A stretch of DNA of 64,000 nucleotides from Pseudanabaena yagii GIHE-NHR1. GTDB lineage: Bacteria; Cyanobacteriota; Cyanobacteriia; Pseudanabaenales; Pseudanabaenaceae. Position 1 is the stretch's first letter. Every line of letters begins with the position of its first letter. The stretch covers positions 560,501 to 624,500 of the forward strand of contig NZ_JAAVJL010000002.1 of NCBI RefSeq assembly GCF_012863495.1, given 5' to 3'. Shown in pieces: positions 47,880-60,340 of the stretch. The notes under the pieces are model-generated. The model searched no databases. It had not been told where the DNA came from and was given only the letters and a program-made list of their open reading frames with translations. A program made the position numbers and the translations under genes.

Positions 47880-48271
47880 TTAACTTTGAATATTTGTCAT
47901 AAAGCGATCGCGCAATAAAAACAGTGACTTTGAAAAAATAATTTAACAAGCTATTTTTAGCCTTATTCTAGGAATTCAAGACTTGTAATTAGACTTAAAA
48001 ATAGACTTACTTAAATCATAGTTAGACTACATGCCTAAAATGATAGAAGAGAGATTTTTGGGTATCCTCTCTTTCTTCTTTAAACGTTTTAGCCGCGCAT
48101 AAATTTATAAGCTTGCGAATTTAGTTGAATCCTTACATAGCAACTTAGCTTACGATAATGGTTATTTACGCAAGCACGGGTATTTGATTGCTGTTCAAAA
48201 TACTAAAGTGCTTGTATATAGCGGATTTTGGGGATCGTTGTATCTTTACGCAAGCTAGCTAATTTAGTAAG
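47880..48271. other. Intergenic region at the left border of the island
   Basis: 391 bp, AT-rich, without a gene. It holds a hairpin-like AGAGAG/CTCTCT pair near 48047-48085, degenerate TTTACGCAAGC motifs (48165-48175, 48245-48255) and the left flanking repeat 48224-48268. It must also hold the promoter of the iron operon. Confidence 0.55.
48224..48268. repeat. Left flanking repeat of the island
   Basis: GATTTTGGGG-ATCGTTG...TTTAC..AAGCTA..TAATTT..TAAGCT aligns to 60291-60340 at about 40 of 50 positions in the same orientation. It may be an attachment-site remnant or a dispersed MITE-like repeat. Its GCTAGC arms could also terminate the leftward island operon. Confidence 0.45.
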
Positions 48272-48574
48272 CTAGCCTTTCTTTAGGTGAATGATCTGGT
48301 CGATGGTAACTACCCAAGATTGTTGAATTACCTTGTTTTCGACCTCGATCAAGTCTCCTTTGACGGAAATTATTTGCGCCCAAAAGCGTTTTTTCTTGAC
48401 CAAAATTAGCACTTGATCGCCTGTGGATAAGCTTTCGATTTTTGGATTTTCGATAAAAATGCTTTCTATAATGGAGGCTTGCGAATTCGATGGTTCTAGC
48501 TCGTAAGCTGTGCGTAGAAAGGCATCTGATAAATTTTTAAACAGCTTAGCTGCAATTTCCTTAAGCTCACTCAT
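48272..48574 (-). CDS. Small island protein, unknown
   Basis: 100 residues, no signal or membrane segment. The N-terminal half is helical (MSELKEIAAKLFKNLSDAF). The second half, with LSTGDQVLILVKKKRFWAQI and SVKGDLIEVENKVIQQSW, reads like a small beta-barrel of SH3/KOW kind. It starts 2 bp after the primase-helicase stop, so it is the last gene of the replication operon. No family recognised. Confidence 0.7.
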   Translation of the reverse strand: MSELKEIAAKLFKNLSDAFLRTAYELEPSNSQASIIESIFIENPKIESLSTGDQVLILVKKKRFWAQIISVKGDLIEVENKVIQQSWVVTIDQIIHLKKG

Positions 48575-48576
48575 AT

Positions 48577-51507
48577 CTAAATAACCCTGATTTCATCACG
48601 AGAAAAATGATTGCCTTGAACCCACTTGGGACACTCTACAAAATATTTCAATCCCATTCGGGCGGTAATAGTCCCAGTGGCTCCTACAAAAAATCCTTTC
48701 ACCACTTCAACGCGATCACCAATTTCTGGGCGATCTCCTTGCTTAAATGATTTTTTCTGCAAGTAATTATTAGTGACACACAAATTTGGTTCACCTTGGT
48801 TCATTGGTTCACTAATGGCGTGGTTGTCAGTTTTTTTTGCTTCACCGTCAAAATAATTTGGTTCACCCATCGATTTTGGTTCACCAGCTAAATTATTTGC
48901 AGTGTTATTAATTTGGTTCACCAAAAATGAATCAAATAAATTTGGTTCACCTTTTGGTTCATCGGTTGAAATACTCTCTATATCTTGATTTTTTTCTTCA
49001 GGTGAATCAAATGAATCAAAATCATGAGAAATTGCAAAATTTATAGATTGAATACCATAGACTAGAAAACCGTGCTTTGTCCTTTGGCTGAAACGCGCTC
49101 TTGGAAAGATTTTGGTTAACCCTTGTTTCATTAGCCTTGGTGCTTTTATCCAAGGATCGAAACGATTGCCATCGTCAAGCCAATCAAGTCGCTCTTTACC
49201 TTTGTCAGTGGTTTCAATATCTAAAATGCCTTGATCGACATACCAAGATTTAAGGCTTTCATAAAGATCGCCAATTTTGATGCATCCATCTCCCTGCTCT
49301 AATTTGATATCGGTAGCCCATCTAATTAGATGGCAGCTTGCCTCTTTCGCTTCTTGAATTGCGCCCGCCAAAGGTTTGTAGTCAATGCCATCTTGCATAA
49401 GTCTCACCAGTGCATCTAGTAGGCGATTTAGTAAGGATGGACAGACTTGATTTTGAAGAAATTCAGGGTCGTTTTTGAATCGTGGATCGGCGGGTAGTTC
49501 GTCTGGTGATTGCGGGTCGCTGGTGAAGGTCTTCGCAAATTTGACGATCGCATATCTTGACTCAATGGCTTTTTGTGCGCCAACAATTGACGGTGCTTCG
49601 TTACAGTTCAAAAGCACGATACAGGCGGGTTTGATGTCATAGTCATCTACGTTTTTACGTTCGATGTCGATTGGATCGCCAGTAAGCACATTCTTGAGAG
49701 ATTGCAGACTGTCAAGGCTTAAGCGTGAGTGATTTTCTGATGCCCAGTTGATGCGACTGTATTCCAGCTTGGCAAGTGGGAACTTTTTGCCCTCATCGTA
49801 TTGTTGGAAGTCGCGAAGCGAACAACCTGTAATACCACGGGAAAATATTTCGGCGATCGCTTCTCTGAGTGTGTCTTTACCGTTGGAACCATCACCTTGG
49901 AGAAGCAAGCCACGTAGACGATCTGGCATGACTTTACGCACATTTGCCAAGTCAAAAGAGGCAGCTATGGTTTTCAGAAATACGTCTCGCTGTGCATCAT
50001 CAAGGGCAATTAGTAGGCGATCGCAGGTTTCAGGATCGGCTTTTGGGTCATATCTGACTTTGGAGCAGTAGGTATAAACCATGTTTGGATGATGGTTTTT
50101 AAGTTTCCAAGTTGGTGTTTTGCCTTCCCATTCAATAGTTAAAACACCGTTGGCAAGGTTTAAACCTGTGGGATTTACGGTTGTAGGGTCAACACCAAAG
50201 CCAACTTTCACCCATTTCATTACAGCATTGACGCTTTGCTCATTGGCATATTTGTAGGTGCGCTTATTGGTGCGGTCATCGTAGACCAGAAACTTATTGC
50301 AAAATTCACTGATGCGACGCTTTTCGACTGGATCGGGACTGACTTCGTAATGTGTGCCTGTCCAATAATGCAAGGTGTCATTAATACAAACCCAGTGTTT
50401 ATCACTGAATAGTTTTTTCTGGGCAATTTGGTTGAAATGCTCAGAGATAGGCGGCTCGTCGGGGTCGTATCGGTCTAGATGGATAATTTCCTGCTCTGTT
50501 TCCTGTGTGGCGCTTTGCGCCGCCTCTGTAATTTCCTCTGAAACAACATCAATAGTATTTTCAGTCTTTGAAGCTTTGATAAGCATTTCAAGGTATTGAT
50601 CGCCAAATTCCTTGAATCCGTCGGTGATGTCATACCCATTTTTGGGATTTTCGGGCGCTGGTACAGTGGCGACAAATGCGCGATCGCCAATTGCCTCGGC
50701 AAGTTTCTTGGCTCCATCCTGTCCAGCCCGTCGCCCTTTGTTATCGGGGTAATCCAAATCATAAAAAATCACGATGCGATCGTATTGGTCCAGGGGTGAT
50801 AAATCTTTAGGAATGCCACCAGCACCACAGGTCGCTGTGGCTACGCTGATATTTGATTGCTCGTTGTAAAGTTTCTGACCCAATAGCAGGGCATCCCATT
50901 CACCCTCACAAATCCATAACTCTTTGCCGTCTGGTTGATGGGTAAAGTACCAGCGTGCGGTGACGTTTGGCTGTGACATTGGTTGATCGGGGCGATCTTC
51001 TTCTGGCAACCATTTATTAGGGAAATACTTGCCAAGCCATTTACCCGCCTCGATTTCGTAGGGGATAAACAGGCATGGTGTAGGTTTCCACTCTTCACCA
51101 TATTTAAAATTTTTGAAGGTGTAGCCAATCTTGAAATACTCAATGGTGCGAAGCTCTAATCCTCTATCAAGTAGATATTGCAATGCTTTTGGGGCGGTTT
51201 TTGAAGTTTTCCCGCGCAGCAATCTTGATGATGATTCGATGTTTTCATCGGTTTGGTAAACGATTTCTTTTTGTGGTTTGGCTGTGGGGATGTAGGTTTT
51301 CTCAAGTGGCTTCGCGTCGCCGATCGCTTCTCTGATTTGCTCGGTTGTGCAGCCTCGATGACATTTGTAAGCACCATGATCGGCGGGGTCAAGTGATACC
51401 GATAGGTTGTATTTGCGGTAGCCTTCACCTTTAGTTAGTAGGCATGAGGGGCATATTGCACGCCCTGTTTTGTTGAATTGAACGTGGTCAAAGATTGAAA
51501 ATGGCAT
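48577..51507 (-). CDS. Primase-helicase (zinc finger, TOPRIM, D5/SF3-like ATPase)
   Basis: 976 residues from the ATG at 51507; a 51-base longer frame starting at 51558 lacks family features. An N-terminal CHC-type zinc finger (CPSC ... CHRGC) precedes a TOPRIM fold (LWICEGEWDALL near residue 200; VIFYDLDYPDNKG near 250). A D5-type N-domain and an SF3-like ATPase follow, with Walker A GDGSNGKDTL near 545 and VLLNCNEAPSIVG near 640. The C-terminus has several G-E-P-(N/K) repeats and a KOW-like end. Such enzymes start replication of phages, satellites and plasmids. It is the largest gene of the island. Confidence 0.9.
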   Translation of the reverse strand: MPFSIFDHVQFNKTGRAICPSCLLTKGEGYRKYNLSVSLDPADHGAYKCHRGCTTEQIREAIGDAKPLEKTYIPTAKPQKEIVYQTDENIESSSRLLRGKTSKTAPKALQYLLDRGLELRTIEYFKIGYTFKNFKYGEEWKPTPCLFIPYEIEAGKWLGKYFPNKWLPEEDRPDQPMSQPNVTARWYFTHQPDGKELWICEGEWDALLLGQKLYNEQSNISVATATCGAGGIPKDLSPLDQYDRIVIFYDLDYPDNKGRRAGQDGAKKLAEAIGDRAFVATVPAPENPKNGYDITDGFKEFGDQYLEMLIKASKTENTIDVVSEEITEAAQSATQETEQEIIHLDRYDPDEPPISEHFNQIAQKKLFSDKHWVCINDTLHYWTGTHYEVSPDPVEKRRISEFCNKFLVYDDRTNKRTYKYANEQSVNAVMKWVKVGFGVDPTTVNPTGLNLANGVLTIEWEGKTPTWKLKNHHPNMVYTYCSKVRYDPKADPETCDRLLIALDDAQRDVFLKTIAASFDLANVRKVMPDRLRGLLLQGDGSNGKDTLREAIAEIFSRGITGCSLRDFQQYDEGKKFPLAKLEYSRINWASENHSRLSLDSLQSLKNVLTGDPIDIERKNVDDYDIKPACIVLLNCNEAPSIVGAQKAIESRYAIVKFAKTFTSDPQSPDELPADPRFKNDPEFLQNQVCPSLLNRLLDALVRLMQDGIDYKPLAGAIQEAKEASCHLIRWATDIKLEQGDGCIKIGDLYESLKSWYVDQGILDIETTDKGKERLDWLDDGNRFDPWIKAPRLMKQGLTKIFPRARFSQRTKHGFLVYGIQSINFAISHDFDSFDSPEEKNQDIESISTDEPKGEPNLFDSFLVNQINNTANNLAGEPKSMGEPNYFDGEAKKTDNHAISEPMNQGEPNLCVTNNYLQKKSFKQGDRPEIGDRVEVVKGFFVGATGTITARMGLKYFVECPKWVQGNHFSRDEIRVI
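48785..48962. repeat. Iteron-like direct repeats TTTGGTTCACC
   Basis: Exact TTTGGTTCACC starts at 48785, 48857, 48875, 48912 and 48941, with related TTGGTTCA(C/T) at 48796, 48804 and 48954. All are in one orientation, inside the 3' part of the primase-helicase gene, where they encode the G-E-P-N repeats. A candidate replication origin. Confidence 0.6.
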
Positions 51508-51591
51508 GATTTTTCGTGCATGGATGAAATTTTGTACAAAAAAAATGGCGATCGCCACTTCACTGGGTAAAGTTGCGATCGCGTGAATTGG

Positions 51592-51822
51592 TTAGTCTTT
51601 TTTGAAGCAATAAATTCTTAGGAAGAGGTCAAGCTGTGTTGGGTCGTTTTGCACAATTTCAATGTTTTTGATGAGTTCATCTAGGATCATCTCCGTCGAA
51701 ATAACTTCAAATCTTGATTGAATGTCGGCGGGAAAGTTTGCCTCGTGTCGCTTTCGCAAGTCATCCAGTATTGCTAGATGTCGTTGAGCTTGCTTTAAAA
51801 CTCCTGTGATATCGACTTTCAT
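51592..51822 (-). CDS. Small helical island protein, unknown
   Basis: 76 residues from the ATG at 51822 (MKVDITGVLKQAQRHLAILD). This start overlaps the upstream stop as ATGA (51819-51822), which supports it over a longer frame from 51858. The protein is helical and charged, with no recognised domain. It is coupled to the gene before it and lies 84 bp before the primase-helicase start. Confidence 0.7.
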   Translation of the reverse strand: MKVDITGVLKQAQRHLAILDDLRKRHEANFPADIQSRFEVISTEMILDELIKNIEIVQNDPTQLDLFLRIYCFKKD

Positions 51823-52265
51823 GCTGCTAATCCCTCGTCTAGTGCGTCGTACATCCAATTTGGGTCGAGTACATCTTGAATAGCGGCTTCCTCGTCGATA
51901 AGGATTGCTTCAAATTCGCCGCACGCTTCTCCATCGCATTGCTCAGCAGGTAGATCACCACATGGGCAAAACTCATAAAGCTCCTCTCTAAGCTCGTCGG
52001 CAGCATCTTCTAGTTTTTGTTGCTCCGAATCGAGTATCAAATGTGATTTCAGAGAGTGGGCAAGGCATTCAATAATGGTTAGGCTGTCGATGATGGTTAA
52101 GGATTTAATCCATTGAGTAGCATCAGCGCTTAGGTTTAGTACTTTGAATCCCTCTTGTGCTTGTAGTACTGAGTCTGTGAGTTCGTTGAGTAGCACCGCT
52201 TGGGGGGTTAACTCAAGGGAAAAGACTTCTTTGGCGATCGCTTCACTTGGTAGAACGTTACTCAT
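51819..52265 (-). CDS. Acidic island protein, unknown
   Basis: 148 residues, strongly acidic. A cysteine cluster CPCGDLPAEQCDGEACGEF (about residues 97-115) could bind a metal. The N-terminal part is helical. There is no recognised family. It overlaps both neighbours: 8 bp with the gene upstream and ATGA with the gene downstream. Such tight packing is usual in phage early operons. Confidence 0.72.
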   Translation of the reverse strand: MSNVLPSEAIAKEVFSLELTPQAVLLNELTDSVLQAQEGFKVLNLSADATQWIKSLTIIDSLTIIECLAHSLKSHLILDSEQQKLEDAADELREELYEFCPCGDLPAEQCDGEACGEFEAILIDEEAAIQDVLDPNWMYDALDEGLAA

Positions 52266-52539
52266 GATTCACCTCTTGCACTGGTACGGTGTGCAGGAAT
52301 GCAAGGCGATCGCTTAACCAGCGCAATAAATCAACTTTTTTCTCAGTCGATAGCATATCTATCTCTGAACAAGTGTTGTAATGAAGCACGTAATTCACAA
52401 AATCAGTGCGGTGTCTGATTGCTGAGACTAAATCGTGTACCACTTCAAGTAAGGCTTTGTCGCTTAGCTTTGAGATTTCTGCTTCAGTCTGTTCTGATAG
52501 CTGCAAGCCGTAGTAGCCTGCGGGTTGTGGGAATGCCAT
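52258..52539 (-). CDS. Small island protein, unknown; first gene of the replication operon
   Basis: 93 residues, helical, starting MAFPQPAGYYGLQLSEQTEA. No recognised family. It is first of the leftward operon (four small genes and the primase-helicase). Two copies of the palindromic operator (52561-52578 and 52600-52617) lie directly upstream of its start, so the nearby helix-turn-helix proteins probably control the operon. Confidence 0.7.
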   Translation of the reverse strand: MAFPQPAGYYGLQLSEQTEAEISKLSDKALLEVVHDLVSAIRHRTDFVNYVLHYNTCSEIDMLSTEKKVDLLRWLSDRLAFLHTVPVQEVNHE

Positions 52540-52560
52540 TGGTAGTTACTCCTAAATAGG

Positions 52561-52578
52561 GTTGTAAGTTTTTACAAC
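52561..52578. promoter_or_regulatory. Operator O1, GTTGTAA-N4-TTACAAC
   Basis: A perfect 18-bp dyad 22 bp upstream of the start of the 93-residue gene. Confidence 0.7.
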
Positions 52579-52579
52579 T

Positions 52580-52807
52580 TCATTTCAAATTAACACAGGG
52601 TTGTAAATTCTTACAACTATTTTGCCGTCTAATAACAATTGCCTCCAAAACCTTATAACTAGGCATTCCCAATGTTTCGCCTAACCTATTCAAAGTCTTT
52701 TCAGACAATAGCTGACCACTTAGATAGCGGCTAAGGTTTTCCTTTGCTATACCTGAAACTCTTGCCAGTTCTCCTATTGGAGTATTTAAAAACTCTTCTA
52801 TAGTCAT
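52580..52807 (-). CDS. Helix-turn-helix regulator (leftward)
   Basis: 75 residues, a small XRE-like DNA-binding protein. The HTH is at about 11-50: IGELARVSGIAKENLSRYLS, then KTLNRLGETLGM. It is divergent from a second HTH gene by 116 bp, the classic layout of a repressor/antirepressor switch. Operator copies overlap its start codon (52805-52822) and its last codons (52600-52617), implying self-control and control of the downstream operon. With so small a protein, dimer formation on the 18-bp dyad is expected. Confidence 0.82.
   Translation of the reverse strand: MTIEEFLNTPIGELARVSGIAKENLSRYLSGQLLSEKTLNRLGETLGMPSYKVLEAIVIRRQNSCKNLQPCVNLK
52600..52617. promoter_or_regulatory. Operator O2, GTTGTAA-N4-TTACAAC
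   Basis: A second perfect dyad, 39 bp from O1 centre to centre, located inside the last codons of the leftward HTH gene. Confidence 0.68.
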
Positions 52808-52886
52808 GTAGTTTTTTACAACTCAAAAATCATTTCTATGATAAACCCTTTGAGTTGTAAAAATAAGCATTGTAAGAATCTACAAC
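52805..52886. promoter_or_regulatory. Divergent promoter with partial operators
   Basis: TTACAAC half-site with a poor left arm at 52805-52822 (overlapping the leftward start codon), a lone GTTGTAA at 52854-52860 and a near-perfect ATTGTAA-GAAT-CTACAAC at 52869-52886. The graded match quality suggests sites of different affinity. Confidence 0.6.
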
Positions 52887-52923
52887 CCTAAGCGATAATT
52901 AATTACCACTAAAAACTAAAAAT

Positions 52924-53154
52924 ATGAATCACAGAGAGGCTCTCGCTGAGGTCATAGAAAAATTTGCAATCAAGGCTTCGGATATTGCCCAGAGTGCGCA
53001 CATTGAAGAGGCTCAATTCAGTCGTTTTAAAACTGGAAAGTCAGGGCTGAACCTTGCCACGTGGGAACATATAGTAGAAGCATTACCCCACAAAGCTAGA
53101 GCCTACTTATATTTTTTGTTGGCAACAAATGACGAGACAAAGCCAGCCGCGTAG
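52924..53154 (+). CDS. Helix-turn-helix regulator (rightward)
   Basis: 76 residues. The HTH at about 16-45 (IKASDIAQSAHIEEAQFSRF) resembles Cro/CI-type small regulators; the C-terminus is helical. It is the divergent partner of the leftward HTH gene. A near-perfect operator lies 38 bp upstream. It starts a rightward group of three small genes ending in a hairpin terminator. Confidence 0.8.
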   Translation: MNHREALAEVIEKFAIKASDIAQSAHIEEAQFSRFKTGKSGLNLATWEHIVEALPHKARAYLYFLLATNDETKPAA

Positions 53155-53160
53155 AAATTA

Positions 53161-53379
53161 ATGCCAGAAAATATTTACATTAGAGCGCTGATTGTAGTTG
53201 CTGTTGCGTTCATTGCAGTACAGGGAACAGCGTGGTTAATTCGGCAAATCTACTTTGTGATCAATGACTTGGATAATTGGGCGATTTGGATGCTGAGATA
53301 TCCTACATCCGCCGCAGGTTTCGCCATAGTTGCAGGTGTTGTCTACTTGGTAGTATCAAAATCTTTGAAGAAAGAATAG
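53161..53379 (+). CDS. Small membrane protein of the island
   Basis: 72 residues with two membrane segments (about 8-28 and 48-67) separated by a short charged loop. No recognised family. It starts 6 bp after the HTH gene stop. Size and layout would fit a holin or immunity protein, but nothing specific supports either. Confidence 0.65.
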   Translation: MPENIYIRALIVVAVAFIAVQGTAWLIRQIYFVINDLDNWAIWMLRYPTSAAGFAIVAGVVYLVVSKSLKKE

Positions 53380-53389
53380 GTGCTTACCA

Positions 53390-53629
53390 ATGAGCTTGTT
53401 TTTAGGTTTGGTGTGTTTTGCGATCGCGCTGATAGCCCTGTGGGTAATAGTCAAAGAAAGTCAGAGAGGACAGCGCGTAAACCGAAAATCAAACGTACCT
53501 GAAGGGATAGCGGCTGACTTTAAACTCTTGATGTTAAGGATTGAGGATACTTTTAGTACCAAAAAACGTAGACGAGGCAAGTCTGAACAGCGCTCAAGGA
53601 TTGATAGAGATACGGGCAGATATTTATAA
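53390..53629 (+). CDS. Small membrane-anchored basic protein of the island
   Basis: 79 residues with one N-terminal membrane segment (about 2-22) and a basic cytoplasmic tail rich in Arg/Lys (KKRRRGKSEQRSR). It lies 10 bp after the previous gene. The tail could bind DNA at the membrane, which is only a suggestion. A hairpin terminator at 53635-53665 closes the operon. Confidence 0.65.
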   Translation: MSLFLGLVCFAIALIALWVIVKESQRGQRVNRKSNVPEGIAADFKLLMLRIEDTFSTKKRRRGKSEQRSRIDRDTGRYL

Positions 53630-53634
53630 ACGAG

Positions 53635-53665
53635 AAAGGCGATCGCTAATTTAGCGATCGCCTTT
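53635..53665. terminator. HIP1-containing hairpin, copy 1
   Basis: 15-bp arms AAAGGCGATCGCTAA and complement, then TTTTT. A bidirectional terminator between the rightward group and the leftward gene 53666-53935. The 31-bp sequence recurs exactly at 53948-53978. Confidence 0.82.
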
Positions 53666-53935
53666 TTAAATAATTACTTTTTTCTTGATTAGCCCAAACT
53701 TTAGATAGGTTTTGAGCATCCATAAAAATTTAGAGCTTTTGCGTCGGGGCTTCAGTCTTGCGGCTCGCACAACGTCAAAGCCAACATGATTGACTTTTGA
53801 TAGCTTTTCAGCGTCGGCAATCGCTGTATCTTTGTCTCTGTATATATGTCCGCAAGGCACTCCAGCCTCCTTACAGCACAACGCACCTCGGAACGGAGCT
53901 ATGCCACTTCTTGATTTTTTACGGATTATGTACAT
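53666..53935 (-). CDS. Small basic protein of the island, unknown
   Basis: 89 residues, basic (C-terminus KFLWMLKTYLKFGLIKKK). Cysteines in GALCCKEAGVPCGHIYRD (about 18-35) with His could form a metal site. No family recognised. It stands alone, bounded on both sides by identical 31-bp HIP1 hairpins; its stop codon abuts one of them. Confidence 0.6.
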   Translation of the reverse strand: MYIIRKKSRSGIAPFRGALCCKEAGVPCGHIYRDKDTAIADAEKLSKVNHVGFDVVRAARLKPRRKSSKFLWMLKTYLKFGLIKKKVII

Positions 53936-53947
53936 ACCAAAATTATA

Positions 53948-53978
53948 AAAGGCGATCGCTAATTTAGCGATCGCCTTT
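53948..53978 (-). terminator. HIP1-containing hairpin, copy 2
   Basis: Identical in all 31 bases to 53635-53665. It ends the leftward structural operon, 4 bp past the stop at 53983. Confidence 0.78.
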
Positions 53979-53982
53979 ATTG

Positions 53983-54141
53983 TTATGTAATTTTTACTGC
54001 TCTAAATTTGATATCTCGATAGGCTTTTTTCAAAAAAGATACCTCTGCCTCAACTGTCTTCTTATCGTACTGATGTTTGTTGTATCTCACCCACACACTA
54101 GCCTGCTCAAATCTTGTTACCTGTTTTTCGATTGCATACAT
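53983..54141 (-). CDS. Very small gene, last of the leftward structural operon
   Basis: 52 residues (MYAIEKQVTRFEQ ... DIKFRAVKIT), charged and helical. It starts 5 bases after the stop of the preceding gene and ends just before a terminator. That packing, plus normal codon use, supports a real gene despite its size. Function unknown. Confidence 0.6.
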   Translation of the reverse strand: MYAIEKQVTRFEQASVWVRYNKHQYDKKTVEAEVSFLKKAYRDIKFRAVKIT

Positions 54142-54146
54142 TTCTG

Positions 54147-54596
54147 TTAAAAGCTCAATCTCAACCTTCCCATACTATCAGGAACACAATCAAACGGGAA
54201 AACATAGCGCACCGTCTGGACTTCCACCGCTTCGACCTCTACAAGCTCATTGACTACAACAGTCTGATATTGCTGATACTCCAAAACCAAAGCAGGATCG
54301 CTCGTTGTGCCATCCTCATTTATCACGCTTTGGTAAACCTCAGTACTACCCACTATCACCTGTTGAATTGTGCCAACAATATACGACGGGTAAAACTCAG
54401 TGTATGAGCTTTCAGTAACAAACAAACCATTAACACTATAAGCATTCGCATTAAAATCAGCGACGATTTGCATACTGTTCTTTCTGTCGCGATAGGGATA
54501 TTTACCATAGTTTTGATAATTAAAATCCCTCTCCAAAAAATAGAGATTGATACTGTTATTAAATACATCCCTCATCGCATCAGAAATAGCACTCAT
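54147..54596 (-). CDS. Probable virion-operon protein, unknown
   Basis: 149 residues from the ATG at 54596, which overlaps the upstream TGA as ATGA (54593-54596). The sequence is beta-rich and aromatic (YFLERDFNYQNYGKYPYRDR), with a Val/Glu-rich stretch near 115-130. No recognised family. By position it belongs with the 646-residue and tail-fibre-like proteins. Confidence 0.68.
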   Translation of the reverse strand: MSAISDAMRDVFNNSINLYFLERDFNYQNYGKYPYRDRKNSMQIVADFNANAYSVNGLFVTESSYTEFYPSYIVGTIQQVIVGSTEVYQSVINEDGTTSDPALVLEYQQYQTVVVNELVEVEAVEVQTVRYVFPFDCVPDSMGRLRLSF

Positions 54597-56533
54597 AAAG
54601 CAATACTCCAATCAGGAGAAAGTTTAGTTTGACCAGTCGAAAAGAAGTCTAAACGGATAGGCTTAATTGTAGTCTTCTTGATTCCCTTTCGAGTTCCAGT
54701 ATGGACAATATCGCCGCGGAGCCGCGGGTTAATCAGCTTCTCAAATTCATTAACTATCCGTTTCGCTTCCGCTTCCGTTGATGCATACACCTGAACCTTT
54801 GAATTGTCCTTGCAGACATAGATAGCGCTATGTTCTCCTTTATTAAATTGCGATAGATTTGGCTTCACTCCCTTTGCTCCGTTGTAATGAGGAATGCTGT
54901 GCTGGTAGTAAGTGTCGGTAAACTTCCCATTCACAAATTCACGATAGAGAACTACCGCTTGCGGTCTTTGTCCTACCCTCACTTGCCAGTATTCGGGGAC
55001 AGTCAGAACCTTATCATTTAGGCTGCATTCTCTTGACCTAATTTCTAGCAATTCCTTAAAGCTTGCCTTGGTTTTCTCCTTATCTTTTGGTAATACCTGA
55101 ATCGTAATTTGTTTAGTCTTAGCTGTCCCGTTTGTCTCGTTACAACCATCAAAAATATCAACAGTTAAATCAACAAAACACTTAGCCAAATTTTCACAAG
55201 AAAACTGACAATCTGTTTGTTTAAACCTATCTTTAGTAGTTTGCTCGACTACCTTGGCAGCATCTTGCGCCGCCTGCTCTGCCTGCTTGATTTGCTCCTT
55301 AAGTTTGCTAACCACATCATCAGGACTGCCTGTCTTCGGTGTTTGAGGCGTAAAGTTTGGAGAGGGAGCCGATCCACTGCTAGGGCTAGGAGAAGATTTT
55401 ATTTGCGTATTTGGCGGCGCGATCGCAGGTTGTGGCGTGAAATTTGGCGCAACTGGTTGCGGTGCTAGGCTAGGGTTCGCATTTTTATTAAGCAATCCCT
55501 TCAGAGCGTCCAAGATATCGCCATTCTGTTGGCTAATGCCATTGACGCTATTTTTTAAATCCTCCAACCGACCGATCGCATCACCAATAGCATTAGGGTC
55601 AAAGGATGGGTTAGGTGCGCTGCCATCGTTGTTTACTATCGGTTTATATTCTGGGTTTCCCTCTGGCTGCCCATCGTTGCGAAATACCCTGTAAATTTGT
55701 GCTACTGGGTTCGCTCCAAAATTATAGATCTGTGTCCACCTTACCCCATCTATATAAAGATCGAGAATTTGACCTGTCCCGCGCAAAGTTACTGATCCTG
55801 CGATCGGTCCAGTAACTAAAGCGCCTTGCTCTCGAATTTGTTGCTCAGTTGGGGGCGTTTCCGATCCTAATGCGCCTTCAGGAGGGTGGTATCTCGGCGG
55901 CGCATCACTGTAGAAAACAACAAACCCCACCCTGTATTGAACGCCAGCACTCTGTCCGCCAGAAAATGGGGCTGCTGAAGAGCTAGCGATGTTGTTCTTA
56001 CTGCCAAAAAATAACCCCATCAATGGTTTACCTAAGAGGGAGAGGAATAGCCCTCCAGCTTTTGCGTAAGGGTTAGGAGCCGCCAGCAATCCTAGAGACA
56101 GAGCATCTACAGCCGCCTCAGCCGCCGCCTCAGGGCTTTTTGTTTTCGCGAAATTAGCCAAATCACCGCCAATCGTCGCCGCCGCTTGGGCGATCGCCGC
56201 CGCTTTGCCGAGATTATTTATCCCATTGCCAATTTTTTCGCCGTATCTTGCTGGGGTTGGTGTTGATTGCTTTGGGGCTGGGTTCGGATACTTTGCCGCT
56301 CCCCTACTTGCAGATGGCGCATTAAAAGCATTCTCTAAATCTTGTGGACTAGTCTTTGGGGGCTGTCTAAGCAGTCCATTATCCGCAGGTATTGGTGTTG
56401 ATTTTGTTTGTGACGGAGTTTTGGGGTCTGGTTGTTGCGTTGGAGTTGCAGGGTATTGGGTTCCACTGTATCTGTTGTACGATGGCGAATTTAATGCCTT
56501 ATTCAAGGCTGCTATTTCTGCGGGTGTTGCCAT
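54593..56533 (-). CDS. Large Pro/Ala-rich probable structural protein
   Basis: 646 residues. The first 110 are Pro/Ser/Thr-rich and probably disordered. A hydrophobic stretch follows (about 135-180, with ALSLGLLAAPNPYAKAG and LFLSLLGKPLMGLFFG) that could insert in a membrane. A middle beta-rich part (195-300), a second Pro/Ser-rich linker (355-405), a coiled-coil-like segment (410-440) and a Cys-containing C-terminal domain (CQFSCENLAKC near 450) complete it. No named family. The layout resembles minor virion or DNA-delivery proteins of membrane-associated phages; this is inference. Confidence 0.7.
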   Translation of the reverse strand: MATPAEIAALNKALNSPSYNRYSGTQYPATPTQQPDPKTPSQTKSTPIPADNGLLRQPPKTSPQDLENAFNAPSASRGAAKYPNPAPKQSTPTPARYGEKIGNGINNLGKAAAIAQAAATIGGDLANFAKTKSPEAAAEAAVDALSLGLLAAPNPYAKAGGLFLSLLGKPLMGLFFGSKNNIASSSAAPFSGGQSAGVQYRVGFVVFYSDAPPRYHPPEGALGSETPPTEQQIREQGALVTGPIAGSVTLRGTGQILDLYIDGVRWTQIYNFGANPVAQIYRVFRNDGQPEGNPEYKPIVNNDGSAPNPSFDPNAIGDAIGRLEDLKNSVNGISQQNGDILDALKGLLNKNANPSLAPQPVAPNFTPQPAIAPPNTQIKSSPSPSSGSAPSPNFTPQTPKTGSPDDVVSKLKEQIKQAEQAAQDAAKVVEQTTKDRFKQTDCQFSCENLAKCFVDLTVDIFDGCNETNGTAKTKQITIQVLPKDKEKTKASFKELLEIRSRECSLNDKVLTVPEYWQVRVGQRPQAVVLYREFVNGKFTDTYYQHSIPHYNGAKGVKPNLSQFNKGEHSAIYVCKDNSKVQVYASTEAEAKRIVNEFEKLINPRLRGDIVHTGTRKGIKKTTIKPIRLDFFSTGQTKLSPDWSIAL

Positions 56534-56536
56534 GTT

Positions 56537-57736
56537 TTATGCGTAAAGAATGATTGCGTTTACTCCACCCGATGCTGTGCGGGTAACTGTTTGAGTGCCT
56601 GTCGTACTTGCGTAAGTTACTTGATAATTAGCATCAGATTTTTTGTACGAATCACCCAAAAGCTCAAACATTTGGATCTCACCGATCCTTAAAAGCCCAC
56701 CGGGTACTGTAATACCTGTGACATTCAGCCTGTAATAGCGATAGGCAACACTGTTTGTAAAGTCAAAAACCTTCGGTGTTGCTCCTACCCATCCCGAAAT
56801 GTTTGATTGCGAATCCAACGTTACCCAATCAGTATTGTTTAGGCTTCCCTGAAAAGTCCACTGCTTTGGAGTATTAGAGTTAACAATGCTCACGTTTGAC
56901 GGGAATATTGAATACCGACGAACAACTTTGCTAGCAGATCCAAAATCCAAAGCTATCCAGTCACTCGATAAAGCTCCGCTACTAGCAAAATCAGGCTCGT
57001 TCGGTACTTGACCATCAAAGCAACGCCAAGCCCCATACGAGCTATCGTACTGACTGCTAGAACTTGCGATGATTGGAGATAGCGAGGAGTTTGATGTCAT
57101 GTTTGACGGTGAAACCTGATTGTATCCAACCTGCTCAAATATGCCCAAAACTACACCATTGACTGTTGTTGATTGCCCTTGAGAAATGGATACTGATTGG
57201 GATTTTACCGAGAATCCATTTATTTCTGTTTTTAATGCATAGGCTGATAAGTCTGGTAATTGGGATGTTAGGGCATAGTTCGCCAAAGCTGTTGCTAGCT
57301 GCGAATTGCTGACATAGTTAGAAAGATTGGGAATGTCGATAAGTCTCGCGTAAGGAGCTAGATCGGGCAATTGCGAGATTAGGGCATAGGCTGACAGGTC
57401 AACGGCTCCACCAGAAGATTCTGACGACACATATAGGCTGAGAGTGTAATCGTCAATAAACCGACTCACAGGCACAAATAGGAAATTTGCACACTCAGAC
57501 ATATCTAGGGGGATAGTCTGGCGTTGGCTGACGATTGGGTATGGTTTAGAACGCCGAAGAGATGCGTCAACCTGATATAGAAAACCCAATAGGATCGGCT
57601 GTGCTGTGTTGTCCACAATGCCATCTACGATGGTTTCTAGATACGCTTTCGCCAAATTTGTCGCGGTATTTGGGATAGTGATCACACCTTGCAAAAAGTT
57701 GTGAGCGTCGCTGTAAATCTGAGTGAATAAGGTCAT
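56537..57736 (-). CDS. Tail-fibre-like protein with an F5/8C domain
   Basis: 399 residues. Residues 105-175 carry repeats of the form YAL-SQLPDLxxYA (ALISQLPDLAPYARL, ALTSQLPDLSAYALK), a pattern common in trimeric phage tail fibres. Residues 205-360 match an F5/8 type C (discoidin) fold: AWRCFDGQ, WIALDFGSA, KQWTFQGSLNNTDWVTLD, YRYYRLNV and GEIQMFEL. Such domains bind sugars. The best reading is a host-recognition protein. It lies 3 bp before the 646-residue gene and 3 bp after the 108-residue gene. Confidence 0.82.
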   Translation of the reverse strand: MTLFTQIYSDAHNFLQGVITIPNTATNLAKAYLETIVDGIVDNTAQPILLGFLYQVDASLRRSKPYPIVSQRQTIPLDMSECANFLFVPVSRFIDDYTLSLYVSSESSGGAVDLSAYALISQLPDLAPYARLIDIPNLSNYVSNSQLATALANYALTSQLPDLSAYALKTEINGFSVKSQSVSISQGQSTTVNGVVLGIFEQVGYNQVSPSNMTSNSSLSPIIASSSSQYDSSYGAWRCFDGQVPNEPDFASSGALSSDWIALDFGSASKVVRRYSIFPSNVSIVNSNTPKQWTFQGSLNNTDWVTLDSQSNISGWVGATPKVFDFTNSVAYRYYRLNVTGITVPGGLLRIGEIQMFELLGDSYKKSDANYQVTYASTTGTQTVTRTASGGVNAIILYA

Positions 57737-57739
57737 AGC

Positions 57740-58066
57740 TTAGGAGTTGTAATTATTGGATGCTGTAGCCGTTCCGATTTCTTGCGTTGCAAGCCATTCC
57801 TTAGTACTTCCATCGCGCCCAAAGTTCGGATCAACGGTTAGATAAATCGAAAAAAGCTTGGTGTTACTGCCGTTGGCAGCCTTAAAAGCATTTTTCTGGA
57901 CTCGTTTGACTGGATCGGCATTTGCCACGGGATAAAAATCGCTGTTACCGTACAAATCCCACATCTGCTCTAAGCACCATGTTAGGCATTTTTCGACTGT
58001 ATCGACGTTGTCAGGGAGTCTCATTTGAGAGCTTGTTGGTGTGCCACTACGGACAAATGCAGTCAT
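57740..58066 (-). CDS. Small protein, first of the leftward structural operon
   Basis: 108 residues, no membrane segment. It contains VEKCLTWCLEQMWDLYG (about 24-40) and FSIYLTVDPNFGRDG. No family recognised. Its start faces the divergent promoter region 58067-58278. Confidence 0.68.
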   Translation of the reverse strand: MTAFVRSGTPTSSQMRLPDNVDTVEKCLTWCLEQMWDLYGNSDFYPVANADPVKRVQKNAFKAANGSNTKLFSIYLTVDPNFGRDGSTKEWLATQEIGTATASNNYNS

Positions 58067-58278
58067 ATGTTTTTAGATAAATTTTGTCGGTTTTCGTGAC
58101 GCGGATTTTAGTTCAAAAATATTTTTTTTCGCAAACGGAAAGACATCCTTGGATACTACTATCCAAGGATGTGACGGGTATTTAAAAGTGTTGCAAAATA
58201 TAGGCTGTAGCGATTTGCGAGTATTTCGCCTTGGATATAGCTTGGCTATGCAAGTTTAGTCAAAGCAAACCCAAAAAA
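58067..58278. promoter_or_regulatory. Divergent promoter region of the structural operons
   Basis: 212 bp between leftward and rightward virion-type genes. It holds a perfect palindrome with 13-bp arms (58143-58155 and 58160-58172, loop CTAC), a candidate operator or signal. It does not match the GTTGTAA operator, so late control may be separate. Confidence 0.55.
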
Positions 58279-58785
58279 ATGACTGCATATACCCCTACAG
58301 GTTCTTCTCTTAAGTCCACAAATATTGCAGGTGCTTTCGTTGAAGTATCGCGTTTATTGAACCAAGCAGAAATTACTCGCAACGCGGCTAACCCTGCTCT
58401 TGCGCCAAAGAATAACATTACAATGACTGCCTCTTTCGATGGCAACGTATTTGCCATTAACGCGGCTATACCCATTCAGACTTCCTTGGATTCAAGCGGT
58501 AAGTTGGTTGTCGATGCCAGTGACTATCTAGGCTCTACCTACAGCGCTTTCACCGTCGGCACTGGTGATGCTAAGTCCACCGATCTGCCTAGTGCATTCC
58601 TTGAAATTGCTCAATTGTTGGCAGCAGCAGAGAAGTCTGTAACACCTACAACCGATCAGCCTAACAACATCACCATTGATGTGTCCTTAGAAACAGGCTT
58701 GGCAACGATCGCCGCAAACATCCCTTTCACTCCTACCCTTGGCAGTGCTGGTGAAGTTACCCTCACCGCAGTTAACTACGTGTAG
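58279..58785 (+). CDS. Protein with two tandem homologous halves, candidate coat protein
   Basis: 168 residues from the ATG at 58279 (MTAYTPTGSSLKS); the longer frame from 58231 adds an unrelated 16 residues. The two halves repeat: KSTNIAGAFVEVSRLLNQAE / KSTDLPSAFLEIAQLLAAAE, then KNNITMTASFDGNVFAINAA / PNNITIDVSLETGLATIAAN, then IPIQTSL / IPFTPTL. Each is a helix followed by beta strands. No Cys, no signal peptide. It is the first gene of the rightward structural operon. Simple, repeated, Ala/Thr-rich composition would suit an abundant coat subunit; this is inference. Confidence 0.78.
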   Translation: MTAYTPTGSSLKSTNIAGAFVEVSRLLNQAEITRNAANPALAPKNNITMTASFDGNVFAINAAIPIQTSLDSSGKLVVDASDYLGSTYSAFTVGTGDAKSTDLPSAFLEIAQLLAAAEKSVTPTTDQPNNITIDVSLETGLATIAANIPFTPTLGSAGEVTLTAVNYV

Positions 58786-58852
58786 GCGACTGGCTTAGGG
58801 CTGTCTGAGTCCTAAGCCTTCCATCAATCTTTGAAATTTAAAGGGAAAATTT

Positions 58853-59314
58853 ATGGCGACTACTCGCAAAAGTAGACCAGCGACAGGGCGGCGAGTTCCT
58901 CTTGTCTTTGGCTCAAAAAAGACTAAGAAGTCTGGAAAAGAAGTAACAGTTCAATTGATCGGCAAAGTTCCAGAAAGCACTATCAAGGCTTTGGATATCA
59001 AGTTAAAACCCGCGACAGCCGCCGCAAAGGATGCAAAGCTTATTAAAGCCAAGAATGGAGCTTTGTATCTACCCCGATCTGGAGGTACAGCCAGTGGACG
59101 GAGATCTATGCTGTGTAGTGCCGACGGTATCTCATGGTATTCAGTGGTAGTGCCAAATGGTTGCTCGTATTCGCTAGCCAAGACTGTTTTGGCGAAAAAC
59201 AGCAAAGCGGTAGCATTCAAAACCGTTGCAGGTGGCACTCAGATTGTTGGTGATGCTAGCAAGGTCAAGGCAAAGCCAAAATCTAGCGCAAAGAAACCAG
59301 CCGCAGGTAAATAG
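58853..59314 (+). CDS. Basic protein with Lys-rich tails
   Basis: 153 residues, strongly basic. The N-terminal tail (RKSRPATGRR) and C-terminal tail (KAKPKSSAKKPAAGK) flank a beta-rich core with SADGISWYSVVVPNGCSYSL. The tails suggest nucleic-acid binding, as in packaged DNA-binding or inner capsid proteins. No family recognised. RBS-like AAAGGGAAA precedes the ATG. Confidence 0.72.
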   Translation: MATTRKSRPATGRRVPLVFGSKKTKKSGKEVTVQLIGKVPESTIKALDIKLKPATAAAKDAKLIKAKNGALYLPRSGGTASGRRSMLCSADGISWYSVVVPNGCSYSLAKTVLAKNSKAVAFKTVAGGTQIVGDASKVKAKPKSSAKKPAAGK

Positions 59315-59320
59315 AGCATC

Positions 59321-59698
59321 ATGGGCAATATAAGGCTTTTGTATCGTGGCACAGTGAATTTCTCGATCAAGCGTGAGTTTGCTGTGCCAATTCAGTTCAC
59401 ACAGCCTAAATTGCTCATAGAAGTATCGGCTGCAAGGGTTCCTCAAGCTACTTTTGGCACTCTACAGTCGATACTTTTTATCCCAGAGCTAGGCTTTACA
59501 AGTGGCAAGGCTCAATCAATCAAATTCGATAAAAATATGATTGAAATTGATGTGCAATTTGCCACGAATTATCGATTGATCTTTGCCCCTTACAGCAAGA
59601 TTAGAGGCAATGTAAACATCAGTATTTATGAGCCTTTGTACGCTCAAAATGTACAGGTTCTGAATGTTGGACAAAATATATTTATAGGGAGTCTATAG
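59321..59698 (+). CDS. Beta-rich island protein, unknown
   Basis: 125 residues, mostly short beta strands (NIRLLYRGTVNFSIKREF, LLIEVSAARVP, MIEIDVQFATNYRLIF). No signal peptide, no family recognised. It lies 6 bp after the basic protein gene. The fold type would suit a virion structural component. Confidence 0.68.
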   Translation: MGNIRLLYRGTVNFSIKREFAVPIQFTQPKLLIEVSAARVPQATFGTLQSILFIPELGFTSGKAQSIKFDKNMIEIDVQFATNYRLIFAPYSKIRGNVNISIYEPLYAQNVQVLNVGQNIFIGSL

Positions 59699-59700
59699 CA

Positions 59701-59934
59701 ATGCCTCCATTCGTAATTGAAGCTAGTGTTCTCCTTGCGATATTGGGAACATCAGTTAAGATAACTAACTCAATAAATCGAATCGAACAAGCTCAGAAAC
59801 AGGGATACACAGAGCTTGTAGGACACGTAAATGTGTTGAGGACTAAGATTGAGTTTTTAGAGAGAGAAAGTCTTGAACTCAAGAATGAGATAAAGGAATC
59901 AAGACGGCATAGGTATTCCGATCCAAATTCCTAG
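59701..59934 (+). CDS. Membrane-anchored coiled-coil protein
   Basis: 77 residues. A short N-terminal hydrophobic stretch (about 3-20) is followed by a coiled coil (about 25-70) with heptads such as VNVLRTKIEFLERESLELKN. It starts 2 bp after the preceding stop. The layout fits a small phage membrane protein. It ends in a 4-bp overlap with the convergent gene. Confidence 0.65.
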   Translation: MPPFVIEASVLLAILGTSVKITNSINRIEQAQKQGYTELVGHVNVLRTKIEFLERESLELKNEIKESRRHRYSDPNS

Positions 59935-60191
59935 ATCGTCTTTGGATTGACAAAATTTTCGAGTTTATATACCAGTTGGCAAAAGTTTGCCTCACCCATT
60001 GCAAAGGGAGCAACTTTAATCTTTTTCTCTATCAGTTTTGCGTTTCCCACACTGTCAAAAGATGCTTTCCAGTTAGATAGCAATGCTGTAATTAAATAAA
60101 CCTCATCATGTGTCAGCTTTGCGAGTGGGATTGTATTTTTTAGCGATCGTCTACTGCGTTTCTGTTGCTTAGTTAATTTTTTCGATTCCAT
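59931..60191 (-). CDS. Small basic protein at the island's right end
   Basis: 86 residues. The N-terminus is very basic (MESKKLTKQQKRSRRSLKN), the rest mixed helix. No family recognised. Its ATG (60189-60191) forms the foot of a 57-bp hairpin, so translation may be controlled by that structure. Confidence 0.62.
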   Translation of the reverse strand: MESKKLTKQQKRSRRSLKNTIPLAKLTHDEVYLITALLSNWKASFDSVGNAKLIEKKIKVAPFAMGEANFCQLVYKLENFVNPKTI

Positions 60192-60245
60192 ACTAAAAAG
60201 TCCTACAGCGAGACTGATAGTCTCATTGTAGGACTTTTTAGTATG
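60189..60245. repeat. 57-bp nested hairpin including a start codon
   Basis: Perfect 19-bp outer arms (60189-60207, 60227-60245) and a perfect 6-bp inner stem (GAGACT 60210-60215 / AGTCTC 60219-60224, loop GAT), with 2-nt unpaired flanks between. Confidence 0.85.
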
Positions 60246-60290
60246 TTTTTTGATTCTAGTTTAATAAACTAAAACCTTTGCCTAGAGCTT

Positions 60291-60340
60291 GATTTGGGGA
60301 ATCGTTGGTTATTTACATAAGCTAAATAATTTCATAAGCT
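60291..60340. repeat. Right flanking repeat of the island
   Basis: GATTTGGGGAATCGTTG...TTTACATAAGCTA...CATAAGCT aligns with 48224-48268 in direct orientation. It contains a TAAGCT/AGCTTA dyad. Confidence 0.45.

Follow-up and report, generated by a model that had tools for sequence, protein, structure and literature searches.

A 12-kb mobile element in a Pseudanabaena chromosome, a candidate non-tailed provirus beside a dif-like site

Gene content of the element

A discrete element of ~12 kb was found at 48.2–60.3 kb in the 64,000-nucleotide stretch of DNA analysed here (the window), which is from the chromosome of a Pseudanabaena-type cyanobacterium and spans positions 560501–624500 of contig C2 in genome G000. 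The open reading frames (ORFs) of the element were numbered ps01 to ps20 from left to right, and every ORF recorded in an initial annotation, made without database searches, was found at its coordinates (Table 1). The only known domains recognised using Pfam and PHROGs were in a primase-helicase, in HTH proteins with weak matches and in an F5/8C fibre protein. No match to integrase, terminase, portal or capsid families was obtained for any of the 20 ORFs in either library, as had been noted, and no meaningful score for a site-specific recombinase was returned. Using the same libraries, no relaxase or secretion genes were recognised in the element, and there was no match to Zot, the assembly ATPase (Zot/pI-type) of Inoviridae. 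An FtsK/HerA packaging ATPase of the Tectiliviricetes type (Asemoviridae, Autolykiviridae, Corticoviridae) was likewise not found in the element by Pfam, PHROGs or an ATPase survey, and terminase, portal and HK97-type capsid (Caudoviricetes) were absent from both the element and the scanned proteins of its relatives.

The product of ps02, initially annotated as a zinc finger-TOPRIM-D5/SF3 primase-helicase, was confirmed as a primase-helicase by Pfam matches to D5_N, DUF5906 and, weakly, Toprim_3, and by matches to PHROG DNA primases with E-values down to 1.9e-32. Its dN/dS of ~0.17–0.19 indicates purifying selection; for most genes of the element this ratio could not be computed because synonymous sites were saturated. 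A search of viral contigs with the primase retrieved only distant primases (24–31% identity), which were set aside. A divergent HTH pair with operators had also been proposed, and this was borne out in that the HTH matches, though weak, can be recognised and the inverted repeat TTTTTTACAACTCAAA / TTTGAGTTGTAAAAA lies in the 116 bp separating ps06 and ps07.

The gene order is shared with three other Pseudanabaena genomes (loci L023–L025), in which the ps20–ps12 block and the primase end are kept, far more than would be expected by chance. The search for this gene order in other genomes and viromes that had been suggested was thus successful within the genus but not in the IMG/VR scans described below. 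When the genus was searched with the DNA of the whole element, the primase/replication half was found to share 83–88% identity with its relatives whereas the virion half shared 64–71%, a mosaic pattern typical of phages; in this search, the CRISPR-spacer signal was swamped by dispersed HIP1-type palindromes.

Table 1. Features of the element and its left flank (coordinates in the window)
Feature	Coordinates	Strand or type	Basis or comment
Candidate chromosomal dif site	48148..48175	+	GCTTACGATAA-TGGTTA-TTTACGCAAGC, 11+6+11 bp
Probable relic of another family element's right end	48176..48229	.	TTTGATTGCTGTTCAAAATACTAAA...; resembles right ends of L023, L024
Whole element	~48228-60322		Boundaries refined via att-like sites
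Left att-like site	48228..48255	+	dif-like centre and right arm, degenerate left arm
ps01, small protein	48272..48574	-	Downstream of primase; ORF; kept in L023-L025
ps02, TOPRIM and D5/SF3 primase-helicase	48577..51507	-	Sole ATPase of element; Pfam, PHROGs
ps03-ps05, small overlapping ORFs of replication operon	51592..52539	-	ORF list and synteny
ps06, HTH protein	52580..52807	-	HTH_3 9.8e-4; relative in L066 2e-15
Divergent promoter/operator region	52808..52923	inverted repeat	Sequence
ps07, divergent HTH protein	52924..53154	+	HTH_26 0.007; relative in L066 4.9e-22
ps08, ps09, small membrane-type proteins	53161..53629	+	Sequence and synteny; ps09 family in 11 loci
ps10, ps11, small ORFs	53666..54141	-	ORF list and synteny
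ps12, distant relative of coat candidate ps16	54147..54596	-	Clusters with ps16; matched by ps16 profile
ps13, Pro-rich protein	54593..56533	-	In 42/45 ps16 loci
ps14, fibre protein with F5/8C domain	56537..57736	-	Pfam, PHROGs
ps15, conserved small protein	57740..58066	-	22/45 loci
ps16, duplicated 80-aa domain, 168 aa	58279..58785	+	Candidate major coat protein
ps17, strongly basic protein	58853..59314	+	Basic families adjoin ps16 in 39/45 loci
ps18, conserved small protein	59321..59698	+	28/45 loci
ps19, N-terminal hydrophobic segment and coiled coil	59701..59934	+	Sequence; 13 loci
ps20, small ORF	59931..60191	-	ORF list and synteny
Right att-like site	60295..60322	+	GGGGAATCGTTGGTTATTTACATAAGC

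A module of putative virion genes

The two halves of ps16, noticed previously as a two-half repeat protein, are 34% identical (E = 6e-12) in the window copy, and members of the family have either a single ~80-aa domain or a fused pair. The one dN/dS comparison that could be computed gave ~0.17, indicating purifying selection. In the structural model (pLDDT 78.8, pTM 0.76), a helix followed by three strands occurs twice, and comparison of this model with virion folds (Foldseek, VIA) found nothing above background (best Z 3.5). With regard to a double jelly-roll, ps16 is hence without a significant fold match, and the other proteins are without confident models. The ps13 product includes a hydrophobic helical segment, a coiled coil and a conserved C-terminal domain, and only this last domain was modelled with a confident fold; as confidence was low elsewhere, the fold search was uninformative. 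The comparison of predicted structures with virus folds that had been recommended gave no significant match. A tail-fibre/F5-8C assignment for ps14 was upheld by PF00754 (7.9e-8) and by PHROG tail-type families (1e-20 to 1e-23).

Inferences drawn from conservation, composition and gene neighbours make ps16 a candidate major coat protein, ps13 a candidate entry or vertex protein and ps17 a candidate genome-condensing virion protein. A minor virion protein is the candidate assignment for ps18, the weak match of which to CTXphi pIII-N1 (E = 0.006) was below the cut-off and is not relied on. The position of ps19 is that of a holin/spanin-like protein, and its function is inferred. PDB profile searches returned chance-level matches only, and no endolysin was recognised in the window copy. 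Matches of the structural-type genes to ordinary chromosomal families would have refuted the initial interpretation, and none was found in Pfam or PHROGs.

Distribution and mobility of the family

A ps16 profile identified relatives in 36 of 390 cyanobacterial genomes, representing 24 of 160 genera, and ps13 alone matched 10 of 97 related genomes. Across 45 ps16 loci, the genes for ps13, the basic protein, ps18-type proteins and ps15 are mostly neighbours of ps16, and their frequencies (Table 1) are lower bounds because contig ends cut some loci. The HMMs were built from sequences of the same 45 loci, which deprives their E-values, but not the co-occurrence, of independence. A weak ps13 match in G074 (L031) was rejected as a composition match, since its neighbours are ordinary chromosomal genes and the other genes of the element are absent.

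Relatives encode endolysins of three unrelated classes (phrog_90, 6.4e-35; Peptidase_M15_3, 2.6e-19; GH19, 4.2e-11), and the fibre genes beside the core vary, with F5/8C domains, collagen or tail-fibre repeats; both observations favour a lytic virus that forms particles. Their extra genes also include those for FHA proteins, and one family element resides in a 178-kb cyanobacterial plasmid that carries MobC and a relaxase not in the module but in the plasmid sequence around it. The primase-helicase was the only Walker-A ATPase found when 15 element ranges were surveyed. An FtsK-like ATPase is present in the relative L027 only, at a contig edge, suggesting that a packaging motor may exist in some members.

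A search of 50,697 phage records yielded no relative, and neither did IMG/VR scans with four alignments (three of ps16 and one of a basic-protein family); the pattern-first method used for IMG/VR can miss divergent relatives. The lack of a particle or virome record, of a virion-fold match for ps16 and of an endolysin in the window copy was counted against a virus.

In genome G306, an 18,288-bp contig (L070) is an exact but circularly permuted match to a chromosomal copy, which is flanked by identical 50-bp repeats within tRNA-Cys sequence. The contig contains the joined attP and has a one-base overlap between its ends, as circular assemblies do. This relative is present both integrated in the tRNA-Cys gene and as an excised circle, demonstrating its mobility. 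Several relatives with a tyrosine integrase adjoin tRNA-Leu, -Glu, -Met or -Cys genes.

Integration site of the window copy

The element is inserted at a 28-bp dif-like site, which lies to its left and has arms that, read directly, are complementary at 8 of 11 positions. The 26-bp core of this site was found in exactly one copy in 21 of 26 genomes of the genus when up to 3 mismatches were allowed, and a control pattern gave 0. A relaxed pattern added a site in G023 and G025, with few matches outside the genus. In the hybrid att sites at both ends of the element, the centre and right arm are retained and the left arm is degenerate, indicating a dif mimic in the element; TLCphi, one of the integrative mobile elements exploiting Xer (IMEX), carries a dif mimic with one divergent arm (PMC5357621). 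The short segment following the dif-like site is probably a relic, judging from its likeness to the right ends of two relatives.

Related elements abut the dif-like site or its hybrid in G008, G017, G024 and G018, and in G017 and G024 a second related element is found head to head across the site. In G014 and G005 the site is empty and has the same neighbours, one gene of the multicopper-oxidase type and one of the FecR type (names taken from reading of the sequence). In the element-free genomes G014, G005 and G023, a distance of 5–6 kb separates the site from two genes, one of the ParA type and one for a tyrosine recombinase of 509–530 aa. This double-domain recombinase was detected in 6 of 6 same-genus genomes searched, with 80–96% identity to the copy in the window genome, which is 518 aa long and encoded at 626159–627712 of the same contig as the window, and a few other cyanobacteria have a version of 322–372 aa. 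In the XerS/difSL and XerH/difH systems, a single recombinase acts at a resolution site that is genetically linked to its gene (PMC5357621), and the Pseudanabaena arrangement differs from these in its 5–6 kb spacing and its larger, double-domain protein of 509–530 aa, the function of which is inferred.

An element can expose such a system, as Legionella LME-1 revealed a previously unknown dif/Xer system (PMC9765430). In a systematic survey, dif could be predicted for most bacterial phyla but for none of the cyanobacteria covered (PMC3025954). The findings strongly suggest that the 28-bp site is the chromosomal dif, but this is not functionally proven, and sampled GC skew in the complete genome G002 was uninformative, giving no terminus signal. 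As the dif-like site is unique and the recombinase gene is linked to it, the early guess that host recombinases integrate the element is well supported, and the window copy was very probably integrated by an Xer-type mechanism, with the action of the recombinase itself inferred. A fixed place in all relatives without any mobile counterpart would have refuted the initial interpretation; tRNA or dif-like sites, an excised circle and empty sites were found instead. The block itself is discrete and mobile, and the family to which it belongs appears to be undescribed.

Nature of the element

The proposal of a small temperate virus or satellite of an undescribed type in the initial annotation is supported, with the choice between the two remaining. 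The block is best explained as an integrated temperate non-tailed provirus of an undescribed cyanobacterial family, with a probability of roughly 0.6, the particle being inferred and not shown. Vibrio phage NO16, of the proposed Asemoviridae, is similarly a temperate non-tailed provirus, of ~10 kb, with dif-like sites and presumed use of host Xer. However, NO16 encodes a packaging ATPase and a capsid protein of the double jelly-roll type (PMC9966536), whereas no packaging ATPase was found in the window element, the coat candidate of which is modelled as a twice-repeated unit of a helix plus three strands. The IMEX (CTXphi, VGJphi, TLCphi, GGI), which carry a dif mimic (PMC5357621), and LME-1 (PMC9765430) are inserted at dif by host Xer, as is inferred for the window element, but the latter has unrelated genes, a cyanobacterial host and no Zot-type ATPase.

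The chief rival, though unlikely, is a self-replicating phage satellite that is packaged by the terminase and capsid of a helper, with the module serving to remodel or decorate the particle of that helper. Satellites such as P4, PICI and the tycheposons of picocyanobacteria are of similar size and have a primase-helicase and a repressor switch, and the ~12-kb length, D5/SF3-type primase-helicase and HTH switch seen here resemble those of the P4/PICI type. The failure to find a packaging ATPase, terminase or capsid also fits. However, the family has its own conserved morphogenesis-like module and fibre and, in relatives, an endolysin, and the endolysins, varied fibres and uniform multi-gene module exceed the usual satellite cargo. 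In PHROGs, moreover, the module proteins show no resemblance to proteins known to remodel capsids or to derive from helpers.

Less likely again is a non-viral integrative element or plasmid in which the module builds a surface or transfer structure (an appendage, vesicle or DNA-transfer apparatus). While a place on the cell surface is conceivable for the Pro-rich and F5/8C proteins, and one family member is in a plasmid and FHA proteins accompany relatives, endolysins and phage-type fibre repeats lie beside the module, no relaxase or secretion genes were recognised in the window element using Pfam and PHROGs, and the MobC and relaxase of the plasmid are outside the module. A decayed tailed prophage that has lost its terminase, portal and capsid is very improbable despite fibre domains related to tailed-phage tail proteins, as the same gene set without these three functions recurs across many genera under purifying selection and the family has intact integrase members and an excised circle.

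For a provirus, the following cycle can be proposed. HTH control would keep the provirus silent, and upon induction a host Xer-type recombinase, probably the double-domain tyrosine recombinase, would recombine the flanking sites to release a circle, which the primase-helicase would replicate with the host polymerase. The ps16 product would then polymerise as the coat and the basic protein condense the DNA, with ps13 and ps14 acting in entry and attachment. As no dedicated packaging motor was found, the genome would probably be enclosed while the particle assembles, not pumped into a shell made beforehand, and lysis proteins, as in relatives, would release the particles. A broader reading is held only tentatively, at somewhat under even odds, namely that the family is a widespread temperate cyanobacterial virus lineage with an unseen coat fold, in which one or two 80-aa domains each consist of a helix plus three strands, and with a motor-less virion, the Pseudanabaena branch of which is integrase-free and located at an unidentified cyanobacterial dif.

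If the element is a virus, ~1 in 11 of the sampled cyanobacterial genomes carries traces of a group that protein-family libraries, phage records and the IMG/VR scans have not revealed and that may have a new coat fold and lack a motor. Whatever the answer to the virus question, the insertion point provides a concrete, testable candidate for the cyanobacterial dif and its recombinase, and the dif question left open in cyanobacteria by the failure of the earlier survey (PMC3025954) is now directly testable.

Features in and around the window element and its relatives
Feature	Location	Details
Double-domain tyrosine recombinase gene	G000:C2:626159-627712 (L164:4160-5713)	Immediately right of window
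HIP1-type palindromes, GGCGATCGC...GCGATCGCC	window 53626-53665 and 53948-53984	Flank small ORF ps10 on each side
FHA-domain protein	L070:505-1116	PF00498 match, 7.5e-16
Tandem array	L091:1-6700 (G333:C4)	985-bp unit, ~7 copies, head-to-tail
FtsK-like ATPase	L027:18173-19840 (-)	Edge of related element
L125	CP150887.1	178 kb cyanobacterial plasmid; related module and site-specific integrase

The double-domain tyrosine recombinase is conserved. In sister genomes without the element, the dif-like site is 5-6 kb away from its gene, which adjoins a ParA-type gene. This protein is a candidate for the Xer recombinase of Pseudanabaena.

Copies similar to the palindromes were found scattered across the genus. 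An FHA-domain protein was found in a subset of elements (the excised circular relative L070, and L077, L088, L089, L091 and L093), mostly close to a ps09-type membrane protein. Each unit of the L091 array contains a ps09-family membrane-protein gene, and the array adjoins a family element flanked on both sides by integrase genes. The FtsK-like ATPase, with hydrophobic segments at its N-terminal end, was the only possible translocase found near the family.

As the module in L125 lies inside a plasmid, family elements enter plasmids too.
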